From the IMG/VR virus record IMGVR_UViG_3300048445_000049, positions 1 through 21,372 of that record: 21,372 nucleotides of DNA, one strand, 5' to 3'. The translations under genes were made by a program, and so were the position numbers. Under the pieces are notes generated by a model that saw only the letters and a list, made by a program, of their open reading frames with translations, ran no database searches and had not been told where the DNA came from. Of this stretch, positions 3,246 to 20,527 are shown piece after piece; position 1 is the stretch's first letter; each line of letters opens with the position of its first letter. This DNA comes from a virus.

Positions 3246-6200
3246 TTAGTTGAGGCCAGGGAACTCACTGCCAGCAGGTGACACGCCTACACCAGTAGTC
3301 CCTGTGCCAGTAAGCTTGTTTGCATTCTTAGCTCTTTGCAAACGCATATCTTTAACTTGCTCTATAGTTGGTAGCGTATTGTATGTTTTAACTGCAAGAC
3401 GTTGCGCTTCTTGAACAACATCTTTTTCAGCAGTGCTAAACTGAAATGGTATTCCTGTTTCTGGATTTTGAACTGGAACTATTGTCCCTGATCTTTCTTC
3501 AACTAACATAAAGTTTACTACACCACCGCTAGAAGAACCCAATGGCATTAAGAATGCTCTGTTCTTGATGTTGCTGTTTGAGATCATCTTGGCCTGACCA
3601 CCAAACCTAGCAGAAGCAATTGCCACTTCAACATTAACCTTGTTGATAAAGTATGACTTTAACTCTTGATTGGTAAACACTGCATCAAGCGCATACTGTG
3701 ACTTTGTTCCAGACATAGAAGCATAGTCTTTAATATACCCCTCGGTATCAACAAAGGTTCTATCATAATACTCAGCAAGAGACTTTTGAATCTCACCAGC
3801 TTCCATAGGCCCATGGAGATATTTAGCTAAGTTTACAAGCAAAGCTCTAGCCTTTGGGTTTGTTGCCGCATCTGGCACAGCGTTAAGTACAAACTCAGCA
3901 TCGCTTCTAGAATTATCTACATCTTTAAAAGCAGCTAATCGTGCAGCATTGGCATCTGGTGTTGTTGCTTCACTAAGTTGTGTTGCAATATTTTGAATTG
4001 GAGCTTCGATAGCTGTGCCTAATATAGAAATAGCCTCCAACTTAGCCTTTGTCGTTTCAGATAGATTGGAGTCATTCCATACGTTTACTGTGTTTTGACC
4101 TCGAGGTTGGCTGGAGAAATGAGCGTACAAAGATATTAAGCTTCTTGCCTCTTCTTCATTGCCAGTAAATGTACCGTTAGCAAGTTGCTGAAAGTTATTA
4201 GCAAGCGTAGTAGGAACAACCCCTGACTCAATAACAGAATACAATCTCTGTGTTGCAGGTTGGCTATAGTCTAAAAGGTCAGTGCTTCGGAAGTAAGCTT
4301 CTGGGTCTTCAAGAGATTCAGATATAAGTCTTTCAGAAAGATCACGATTAGATTTGCTGTCTTCTGTTTTTGTAGAAGAAAGCATTCTTGATATTTGTTC
4401 TTTGTTTTTATTACGTTGAGCAATGCGACCCTCTTCGGTACCAAGGCGAGAGCTTAACTGAACAAGGCGAGACTCAACATAACCAGCACTACCAGCGCGT
4501 ACTTTTGCAGTATCTACCGCATCTACAAGTGAGAGTGGAACTCCCTCTTTATCATCTGGGTTAGCAGCATATTGAGCAGCAGCAGCTAGATCAGCCGATG
4601 TTACTTTTCTACGAGTGCCATCAGCCTCAGTTACATAAGAGCCAATTTGAGAAGCAAGAAATACGCTAACAGCTTGGTTGCGACCTTCCTCAATGTATCT
4701 TGATTTTTGAGTGGGGCTTAGAAAGTCAAAGTCACGAACCCTAGTTTCAAATTCAGCAAGCAATTCATTTGCAGTAACAGAAGATGTAGAGTTTCCAATA
4801 TTCCGAATATATCCAGTTGATAGCTCCTGTTGGAACAAAGCTTTTTCTGATGCAAACGCGGCAGTTGACCTTACGTCATCTGAGGCAAAATCACTTGTTA
4901 CTCCATCAAGGAAGTTGTTGTCATCAACCGTTGTAATTTGCAGCAATGCTTCGATTGCAGCCTTACCTTTGCCACTTAGCTCATCGGTAGACTGCTTATC
5001 TAAAGCACGGTTAATCATTGCCTTTACGGTTTGAGGATCACCTTCAATAGCTTCATAAGCGGCAGCGATTAGCCTTTTAGCGTAAGCTTCTCTTACATCT
5101 TGACGCTGTGTATTAAATTCAGCTTTGGTTGTTGCTGTACTTAAATCTTCTGCTCTAGATTGAATTGAAGCTTGATCTGCATTGTATGCACCAACAATAG
5201 AGTCAACAGCAGCATCGCTAGATATATCTGCGTTATCCAAAATTGATACAGTCTTTGCAACATCAAGAACAACGTCTGTCACATAACGCTCGTTTGCGAC
5301 CTCAATCTCAAAACGTCTAGCTTGAATGTCTGAGTTATAATCATCCGCTACAGACTTAGCAGAAGCATCCGCATACCCAGATACAGCAGACAGCGCATCA
5401 TAATCTAAGACGGATGTTTCCTCACCATCAATCTTAACAGTACGAAACATGTACTTAGCAGCTTCATCGAAGACATTCTTTTCTTGTGCGCTAAGTCCAG
5501 TAGAGTCACCAAGCTTAATTGCGCTTGCAACCTTACCCGCTGAGATGTGGCCTAAGTCTTCAAAGTTTTTATCAATAACACCTTGAGCATAAGCAGCAGC
5601 AGCCGCTTGTCGATACTTAGATGAAGCTCCTTGATTTAAAAGAAACGAGTTTTCGCCATCATCAACGCTCCCAACAATAGACTCAATGAGAACAGTGGCA
5701 TCCTTGCCAAGCTTGGCGTAGTCACGAACAGCATCCAGTCTAGCATCTGCATTCTCAATAATAGAGTTGGCTGTAATTTGACGCTGCCGATTAATTTGCT
5801 CTTCTTGCATATGAAGCGTAGTAGAAGCAATGTACTGCGCTCCTTGCTCCATAATAAAGTTAGTATAGTAAGTCGGCTTGCCATCAACTTCTGATCCAAG
5901 AGCCATAGACTTAAGATACTCGTCCATTTGTTGCTTATACTGTTCAGCACCATATGGATTATTCTTAAACTTAAGAGCTATTTCACCAGCTTTTAGCTTT
6001 AGCTCATTCTCCATTGAAGATTGGAAGCGTTCTTTAACAACACGCTCATATGCTTCTGCTCCAGTACGCCCAAAGAAGCGACCTTCACCTACCCAATCTA
6101 AAGCTTTTGGTTTGCCAGTCTCAGGATTCAAAGCGATTATGTTGGCATCACTAATCTCTTGTGCCATCTTCTCGCCTTGGATTCGTGCCTGACGACCCAT

Positions 6201-17723: not shown

Positions 17724-17739
17724 TGTATCCTCTCGTTAG

Positions 17740-17762
17740 CCCCCCTCTCCCTCTCTCCCCCC
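17740..17762 (-). promoter_or_regulatory. 23-base pure purine/pyrimidine tract in the terS leader
   Basis: The plus strand holds only C and T for 23 bases: six C, then alternating CT with a CCC core, then six C, a near mirror repeat. The leftward mRNA therefore has an uninterrupted G/A tract 17 bases before the terS start. Such tracts can adopt triplex (H-DNA) or stacked-guanine forms, and the GGGAG/GAGG repeats could act as extra ribosome standby sites. Confidence 0.5.
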
Positions 17763-17786
17763 ACAATAACCCGATTGACTGACAAG

Positions 17787-17821
17787 TTGTCAAGATGTGA
17801 CGTGGCGTCACTTCTTGTCAA
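17787..17821. promoter_or_regulatory. Large palindrome containing operator TGACG-N3-CGTCA (copy 1) between two TTGACA boxes
   Basis: TTGTCAAGATGTGACG (17787-17802) and CGTCACTTCTTGTCAA (17806-17821) match as inverted repeats at 14 of 16 positions around TGG. The core TGACGTGGCGTCA is 17798-17810. On the minus strand perfect -35 hexamers TTGACA occur at 17821-17816 and 17793-17788, oriented toward terS, with only poor -10 matches (GTTATT at 17770-17765 for the second, 17-base spacer). The site looks like an operator overlapping a leftward promoter. Confidence 0.5.
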
Positions 17822-17930
17822 CAAGAGTGATTGCTGGTGTTGCACCCCTTGACACATTGTCGAATCAGTCCGAGGGGATACGCACGTGCAGCTGCGCGTT
17901 TGCGTTCCCCTCAACTTATTCGCCAAGTCA

Positions 17931-17971
17931 CAGTGGCACTGGAGTGCCTAGTTCCAGTGGCACACTGGAGT
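17931..17971. repeat. Two near-identical hairpin units, direct repeat CAGTGGCAC..TGGAGT
   Basis: CAGTGGCACTGGAGT (17931-17945) and its copy at 17955-17971, which has two extra bases AC in the middle, are spaced 24 bases apart start to start. Each sits in its own hairpin: GGCACT/AGTGCC (17935-17948, 2-base loop) and TCCAGTG/CACTGGA (17953-17969, loop GCA). This is the only clear tandem duplication in the hairpin region. Confidence 0.6.
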
Positions 17972-18116
17972 CCACCACCAAGCAGAGGCACATGCCCATC
18001 GAGGGCATGCGACTCTGGCAGACGGACGACGCTCCCGCTTTTGTCGTCCTAAATCCACACGCGGGTGCGGATTTACTGCGGTCAGCTATCGCGTAATAAT
18101 ATCCGATCGAGGGATA

Positions 18117-18169
18117 GATATGGGCCGTGGCGGTACACGCCACTAAACCGCAAGCGGTTTACCCATATC
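18117..18169. ncRNA. Perfect three-way junction
   Basis: The outer stem GATATGGG (18117-18124) pairs with CCCATATC (18162-18169), 8 bp. Inside it are GTGGCG/CGCCAC (18127-18132 with 18138-18143, loop GTACA) and TAAACCGC/GCGGTTTA (18144-18151 with 18154-18161, loop AA). Every one of the 22 pairs is Watson-Crick, and only two bases (CC, 18125-18126) are unpaired in the junction. It is too compact for a tRNA and lacks all tRNA arms' conserved bases. Confidence 0.7.
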
Positions 18170-18390
18170 ATCTGTGTCAATACCTTCAGAAACAACTCGG
18201 TCAATGCGCAAGCGTTATTGTGTCACGCACAGCGTGACGCTCTTTAGTTTATTCGCGCACTGAGTCTCATTGTTTCCTCACCTACGGCTGAAACACTTCG
18301 TGATGGAACATCACCAAGTGTGTCAGGGTTTGACTTCGACCCTCGAAAGGATGTTCGGGAACCGTTCAAAATATCAGAAAGGAATGAACA

Positions 18391-18516: not shown

Positions 18517-18534
18517 GAGAACCGCTGCCAACTG

Positions 18535-18597
18535 ATCGACCAGAAGCAAGGCAACCTCGGCAAAGCCGAGGCGCAAGCGGCCTTGCGTCTGCTCGAT
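18535..18597 (+). ncRNA. Long imperfect hairpin with internal 7-bp stem in the gene 1/gene 2 gap
   Basis: Arms 18535-18551 and 18581-18597 pair at 15 of 17 positions (5 bp, C/C mismatch, 4 bp, A/G mismatch, 6 bp). Inside, CCTCGGC (18555-18561) pairs perfectly with GCCGAGG (18565-18571) around AAA, and CGCAAG (18572-18577) can alternatively pair with CTTGCG (18582-18587). It fills the gap between the acidic 41-residue gene and the 205-residue gene and could be an RNase III site or a translation switch. A short TGTC-GAAA-GACA hairpin with GNRA loop follows near 18620. Confidence 0.6.
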
Positions 18598-18660
18598 GCA
18601 GTCGGACGGTCGCGAAGGTGTCGAAAGACATAATACAACTTATCAACAATGGAGAACAAA

Positions 18661-19602: not shown

Positions 19603-19642
19603 AGTGACGTAACGTCAAAAATATAAATGACGCTACGTCACT
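19603..19642 (+). promoter_or_regulatory. Paired operators TGACG-N3-CGTCA (copies 2 and 3)
   Basis: AGTGACGTAACGTCA (19603-19617) and TGACGCTACGTCACT (19628-19642) are inverted copies of one another at 14 of 15 positions, and each is itself a TGACG-N3-CGTCA palindrome (19605-19617, 19628-19640). The centres are 23 bases apart, about two helix turns, so two dimers could bind side by side. AAAATATAAA between them includes TATAAA (19622-19627), possibly a -10 box, though no -35 is seen. Confidence 0.65.
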
Positions 19643-19699: not shown

Positions 19700-20527
19700 A
19701 TGCTAGACATGACAAACGAATGGAACTTTCCCATTCAAACACAACCTATCTATGACATCAATGGCGAACCAATCGAGGGTCACAAAGCAGTGATGCGCAC
19801 TGACACCAACAAAGTGTTGGGCGTACACGGCTCTCGCTACAAAGCAGTAAGCCATGATGATGTTGTCAATTCAATCTTGGACGGTGTGTCACAAGCAGAC
19901 TTATCGAATGACTATACTGTTGATGTTGAGGTGCTAGAAGATGGACGCAAACTGCGCGGTCATATTCTATTCAATGATCTCACAGTTGAACCCGCAGTCG
20001 GTGACTACACCAAGTTCAAAGTAGACTTCTTTAATAGCTATGATGCATCGTGGTCATTCTCACAAGCAGCCAGTGGTCTACGCCTCTGGTGCTTGAATGG
20101 ATGTACTACGCCTGATGCAGTAGCTAAGACACGTTACAAACACACTGCGTCTATCAACGTAGAAGGCAGTGCCAATAAAATGATTATTGGTTTGCAACAC
20201 TTTATGTCACGCAAAGAAGTGTGGCAGTCATGGATGCGCACATCAGTGACAGACGCACAGATAGAGAACTTCTTTAAGAAGACTGTAGCTAAAGCGTTCA
20301 CGCGCCAAGTGACAGTCTCCAAGACCAACGAGAAGCAGCTTGAGAACCTGCTGTCTATCTGGAGCAATGAAGCGGCTGCGCTAGGCCACAACAAGTGGGC
20401 TGCGTACAACACACTAACCTATTGGGCAACGCACACTGGTGAACTGCGCTCGCCGCACACTGCGCGTTACAATCGTGAAGCAGCCATTGCATCTGCAATG
20501 CGCAACAAAGAATGGGAGTTTGCTTAA
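19700..20527 (+). CDS. DUF932 domain protein, 275 aa
   Basis: Start ATG 19700 has GGAG (19690-19693) six bases upstream; an in-frame ATG at 19661 lacks this. The protein opens with a mixed strand region containing KAVMRTDTNKVLGVHGSRYK (about residues 30-49) and the phrase DDVVNSILDGV. A central part, SWSFSQAASGLRLWCLNGC (about 115-133), follows, and it ends in KWAAYNTLTYWATHT with RYNREAAIASAMRN. These are the recognisable blocks of DUF932, a family of phage and plasmid proteins of unknown function, often in early or replication regions. The length is in the normal range. It lies downstream of the paired operators and overlaps the next gene by one base (TAATG). Confidence 0.85.
   Translation: MLDMTNEWNFPIQTQPIYDINGEPIEGHKAVMRTDTNKVLGVHGSRYKAVSHDDVVNSILDGVSQADLSNDYTVDVEVLEDGRKLRGHILFNDLTVEPAVGDYTKFKVDFFNSYDASWSFSQAASGLRLWCLNGCTTPDAVAKTRYKHTASINVEGSANKMIIGLQHFMSRKEVWQSWMRTSVTDAQIENFFKKTVAKAFTRQVTVSKTNEKQLENLLSIWSNEAAALGHNKWAAYNTLTYWATHTGELRSPHTARYNREAAIASAMRNKEWEFA

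Follow-up and report, generated by a model that had tools for sequence, protein, structure and literature searches.

A marine phage carries, between its two gene arms, a non-coding element of about 490 bases whose fold is conserved by compensatory change and present in at least three divergent phage groups. The element belongs to IMG/VR record IMGVR_UViG_3300048445_000049, whose 21,372 bases were analyzed as a whole (the window), and the conserved fold proper extends from about 17857 to 18345. We consider it probable, with considerable doubt remaining, that 17857-18345 is a large multi-domain non-coding RNA of about 490 nt, which would be encoded on the minus strand, the strand of terS and of the late genes.

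The window shows divergent gene arms, the leftward one containing terS, terL, a head-tail adaptor (portal-like), major head and tail genes, and the rightward one mostly unknown genes, among them an early gene (19706-20524) whose product has a DUF932 domain. Between the arms, 17724-18390 is without a plausible gene, and no tRNA was found in the window. Comparison of the relatives revealed no conserved reading frame in the region, as the longest stop-free stretch of each frame shifts among them and indels of 1, 2, 5, and 24 nt disrupt the frames. A conserved protein was rejected on this ground, bearing out an earlier note, made from the sequence alone, that had seen no plausible gene in this stretch.

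Folding of 17724-18390 gave z values of -8.8 for plus-strand RNA, -10.0 for minus-strand RNA, and -9.5 for DNA, and none of 20 shuffles was as stable as the native sequence. The whole window was also scanned in 200-nt segments (baseline mean z -0.7 to -0.8, sd 1.5), and 17.8-18.4 kb and the adjacent early region were outliers. The earlier note had described a series of inverted repeats with abutting helices and had proposed folding against shuffled controls; the repeats are present, the helices abut at 18049/18050 and 18116/18117, and the region is far more stable than its shuffles (z about -7 to -10). The extent it gave, 17787-18343, needs correction on the left side, as the fold occupies 17857-18345 and 17787-17823 is better read as operator/promoter DNA. 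These limits are the ends of the conserved fold and not mapped transcript ends. The features are as follows:

17857..18345, minus strand: large structured element, probably RNA, about 490 nt (consensus of 10 relatives, 17 helices); if a minus-strand RNA, 5' end near 18345 and 3' end near 17857
18288..18326, minus strand: 5' hairpin, near-invariant in sequence in the window's group (14/16 pairs constant)
18190..18275, minus strand: long-stem domain, helices 4-6, around a conserved GCGTCACGC/GCGTGAC hairpin
18100..18169, minus strand: exchangeable domain, with covarying stems in L093 and other sequence in the L092 lineage
17929..18080, minus strand: central multi-branch domain, closed by 18075-18080/17929-17934, the basis of model R1; contains hairpins 18051-18074, 18024-18049, 17982-18019, 17953-17969, and 17935-17948
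18024..18049, minus strand: signature hairpin, with a 7-bp covarying stem, AAAA bulge, 2 bp, and GGGA (GNRA) tetraloop
17861..17922, minus strand: 3' domain, a long interrupted hairpin with a basal GCGAAUC...GAUUCG motif common to other groups
17785..17854, no strand assigned: probable divergent promoter/operator block, probably outside the RNA, with TTGACA on minus (~17785-17790), the GTGACGTGGCGTCAC palindrome (17797-17811), and TTGACA on plus (~17849-17854)
18525..18625, no strand assigned: second conserved structured element, called by folding z, plus a conserved GTGTCGAAAGACA hairpin

This second element (~18525-18625) is located between a small ORF and a 209-aa gene, with z = -4.2 on the plus and -5.7 on the minus strand.

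The window's own group consists of the window (W), L082, L084, L085, L089, L092, L093, and near copies, with about 75-99% identity over the element. Ten relatives aligned in the terS sense gave a consensus of 137 pairs in 17 helices, 30 of these pairs being changed on both sides; helix 5 of the long-stem domain alone has double changes in 6 of its 11 pairs. Results showed that 98.8% of the cells were paired, versus 28-43% when the 3' partner was slid by 1-3 columns, and no shuffle attained the observed double-change count. As the ten sequences correspond to about three lineages, the events are fewer than the cells. Compensatory change across homologues, the key check set by the earlier note, is clearly positive against these controls. 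Its suggestion of one evolved fold is likewise supported, as the stems vary in sequence and one loop stays fixed.

The conservation extends to other groups. Covariance model R1, built on five sequences of the window's group only (domain 17928-18081), found a second group (L014, L017, L107, L109, L116, L117, L149, L153; E 4.5e-8 to 7e-4) and a third one (L105, L115; E about 1e-5), and the relative strand of the matches was the same throughout. When the groups were aligned together, double changes were present in 39 of 52 pairs and 95.9% of the cells paired, versus 35-47% in the slid controls; this percentage leans in the model's favor because the alignment was fitted to it. Independent of this bias is the gap-free hairpin 18024-18049, which is 100% paired with 4 of its 7 outer pairs changed on both sides. 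Its 7-bp stem occurs as GGACGAC, GGACGCG, GGCTGCC, or GGGCGGC around a constant core (AAAA bulge, GC, GGGA, GC on the minus strand); in L149 and L153 the inner pair is U-A, not C-G, and the L133 group has a TTT bulge and a stem ACAC/GTGT or GCAC/GTGC.

The loop pattern was found in 26 viral stretches, and in those belonging to the three groups at least 6 of the 7 stem pairs are Watson-Crick. There were at least 120 bacterial matches to the loop pattern, and among those listed none had five of five inner pairs; bacterial homologues were rejected, as the matches listed contained no fully paired stem, which is what chance predicts. The signature hairpin is also present in L099, a groundwater-type phage contig with unrelated genes (8/8 outer pairs, E 0.0016), where it adjoins a large fold (both at 5001-5480). 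In addition, four clusters carry a second signature, GCGAAUCUG...CUGAUUCGC, on the terS-sense strand, and no cluster carries it on the opposite one.

The data favor a single folded strand, the minus (terS-sense) one. The consensus energy is -172.8 kcal/mol on the minus versus -152.2 kcal/mol on the plus strand, the gain over column-shuffled alignments (energy minus shuffle mean) is greater on the minus strand in 9 of 11 clusters, and the signature loop is of GNRA type on the minus strand only. Isolated within-stem mismatches in the terS sense, counted over 17 clusters, were G.U in 52 cases versus A.C in 16 (p 1.4e-5, a naive value, as are all the mismatch p values, because the clusters are related). 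This strong asymmetry appeared only after Watson-Crick-flanked mismatches were required and clusters were added, looser earlier counts having been ambiguous or weak; taken by itself, the mismatch test does not reach significance for the window's own group and the other groups that carry the signature, where counts are few. In the window both strands fold almost equally well, and G.U pairs are scarce (5-7%; a ROOL control analyzed in the same way had 15%). The unpaired bases have only a slight purine excess and are not A-rich, and systematic loop counts gave no overall enrichment of GNRA or UNCG loops on either strand.

That the element is RNA is likely and not proven, as much of what was observed would also be expected of a single-stranded DNA; our preference for RNA rests on how large the element is, on its multi-branch fold and GNRA loop, and on other phage RNAs as a precedent. 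The choice between RNA and folded DNA, which the earlier note had left undecided, is thereby narrowed to a single folded strand that is more likely RNA, with single-stranded DNA not excluded.

Beside the fold, 17787-17823 is probably a duplex-DNA regulatory sequence and not part of it. In the window and in relatives, GTGACGTGGCGTCAC is flanked by outward-facing TTGACA-like elements, and from their sequence we read these elements and the palindromes as putative divergent promoters with operators. The palindrome TGACGYNRCGTCA is located at 17798-17810, in the divergent promoter region, and recurs exactly at 19605 (19605-19617) and 19628 (19628-19640), both before the DUF932 gene; allowing up to 1 mismatch, the window contains 5 matches versus 0.12 expected. 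Palindromes of this type are common in relatives, some of them within the folded region. No good -10 was recognized for the TTGACA elements in 17785..17854, and we found neither a convincing promoter where the element ends on the right nor a minus-strand terminator. We also observed, just upstream of terS (17742-17763), two C-runs on the plus strand (G-runs on the terS strand) that are conserved in many relatives.

Considering these data, three other accounts of the fold were weighed. An array of duplex-DNA operator palindromes without any single fold would hold for 17787-17823 and possibly for the near-invariant hairpin 18288-18326, which could alternatively be a duplex-DNA binding site; elsewhere, however, the stems vary freely with pairing kept, unlike operators, so that covariation refutes this account for the whole element and leaves it hardly any credit. 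A folded single-stranded or extruded DNA, such as an origin, primosome, or packaging locus with hairpins on one strand, is improbable and still possible, considering that G.T and G.A are the best tolerated mismatches in DNA too. The DNA z is equally strong, G.U pairs are rare, the two strands of the window fold near-equally, and the region is located between divergent arms, all of which would suit DNA, whereas the very large multi-branch fold, a GNRA-type core conserved on one strand, the consistent strand bias, and the fact that the element is not always beside terS would not. We hold in equally low regard a plus-strand RNA, namely a leader of the rightward early operon starting from the TTGACA at ~17849. 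A -35-like plus TTGACA does precede the fold in several groups, early genes always adjoin the element, and in L099 the genes run in the plus-type sense, opposite to the terS-type sense of the hairpin, so that a minus reading there is antisense to genes. On the contrary, a start at the usual distance would split the 17861-17922 domain, and the strand statistics point the opposite way. An RNA on this strand had been the initial reading, based on its position before the early genes and on a few UNCG/GNRA-like loops, and it was rejected as there is no tetraloop enrichment and the strand tests favor minus.

For a minus-strand RNA, we infer leftward transcription from the right-hand end during infection, for which there are no transcript data. 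The element adjoins terS in groups 1 and 2 and not in group 3: in L105 and L115 it precedes other leftward genes, and the terS-like gene of L105 is located elsewhere. A terS-specific role is therefore unlikely, and the packaging site next to terS that the earlier note had considered is weakened by this one related group. A cis-acting leader, that is, a 5' untranslated region controlling the leftward late operon, for example by RNA polymerase modification (antitermination) or by transcript timing or processing, is the main rival, unlikely overall and a minority choice, if a less distant one, when only the functional options are compared. It agrees with the position of the element directly upstream of, and co-directional with, the left-arm operon (window, groups 1-3) and with the absence of a minus-strand terminator between the element and terS. 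However, TTGACA-like sites and an operator palindrome stand between the two, suggesting that terS has its own promoter, and the first downstream gene is different in group 3. Moreover, put-type antitermination RNAs of HK022-like phages, which are structured leaders in a phage operon and part of early transcripts, are far smaller than the element. Among the functional choices we lean, a little short of even confidence, to a trans-acting or architectural RNA, which would act chiefly through its folded shape, with or without a protein partner, since the genes that follow it differ from phage to phage and one of its domains is swapped freely. Indeed, the L092 lineage has other sequence in place of 18100-18169 and keeps the remainder, consistent with a folded RNA of modular build.

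Relatives of the TerS protein number in the hundreds in IMG/VR, and the sole cultured relative, Pelagibacter phage EXVC031P Hodr, is a distant one. In 42 of 63 terS-linked loci (those of L002-L081 with enough sequence), the region upstream of terS has z <= -4 on the terS-sense strand; individual z values are rough because only 10 shuffles were made per locus, and these regions need not all be homologues of the window's element. Strongly folded non-coding regions before terS in many uncultured marine relatives suggest that such folding may occur commonly in the ocean without having been annotated. Upstream of terS in L043, L050, L053, L055, L060, and L065 we observed very strong, differently built folds with a clearer terS-strand preference, which are not established homologues of the window's element. 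A strong fold is also present in the divergent intergenic region of EXVC031P Hodr (L118 3637-3973; z -4.6 and -5.4); this region is shorter, and R1 does not detect it. No DNA match to the element was found in cultured phages or plasmids.

With Rfam 15, the window gave no match at gathering score, only two chance eukaryotic snoRNA matches appearing at E up to 5, and the relatives tested gave none, the GOLLD covariance model included. A known RNA family was rejected because none in Rfam matched at strict or lax thresholds, and the element is for this reason not classed as GOLLD or ROOL, upholding the earlier note, which could match it to neither. The same tool found the ROOL control, a single sequence from a search among relatives of a Lachnospiraceae genome, at 358 bits. 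The open-access papers searched contain no description of the element; most subscription papers and bioRxiv preprints were outside the search. As a terminase gene adjoins the element, the phi29-type packaging RNA (pRNA), also a phage RNA, has to be considered; unlike it, the element has no Rfam match and in group 3 is not beside terS.

ROOL and GOLLD, two large RNAs of phages, form cages of 8 and 14 copies, respectively; they often lie close to tRNA islands, and their function is unknown (PMC12286853). ROOL (RF03087) is also a large, ornate, multi-domain phage RNA (PMC12286853), and its 574 model positions are close to the element's length, but the element has no sequence or covariance match to RF03087 and no nearby tRNA island, and compared with the ROOL control its G.U pairs are scarcer and its strand asymmetry is weaker. 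GOLLD resembles it as a large phage RNA in which some regions are conserved and others vary, and of which a marine example is known, whereas GOLLD members are often >800 nt and near tRNAs (PMC12286853), the element being ~490 nt in a window without tRNA. OLE (PMC12286853) and the raiA motif (PMC11706538) are large structured non-coding RNAs too, multimerizing or binding proteins; both are bacterial and not of phage, and the element has no Rfam match to such RNAs.

One criterion for the general kind of large ornate phage RNA, an extended multi-branch fold conserved by covariation, is fulfilled. To our knowledge, bacteria and phages have yielded only a handful of large ornate RNAs, of which GOLLD, ROOL, and OLE form RNA-only complexes whose purpose is unclear. 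Tentatively, and with somewhat more doubt than belief, we propose a new, possibly widespread class of large phage RNA, defined by the AAAA-bulge/GGGA hairpin and the GCGAAUCUG/CUGAUUCGC helix with swappable domains between them, which would serve as a folded object in late infection, perhaps assembling into RNA-only particles like those of ROOL and GOLLD, and would be carried by marine phages of podovirus-like type as well as by an unrelated phage from groundwater. An independent class with its own signature and covariance model and with members in at least three phage groups would be a new test case for the role of such RNAs. In conclusion, the element is best read as representing a new class among the large ornate phage RNAs, one that may work like ROOL and GOLLD and is a member of neither.
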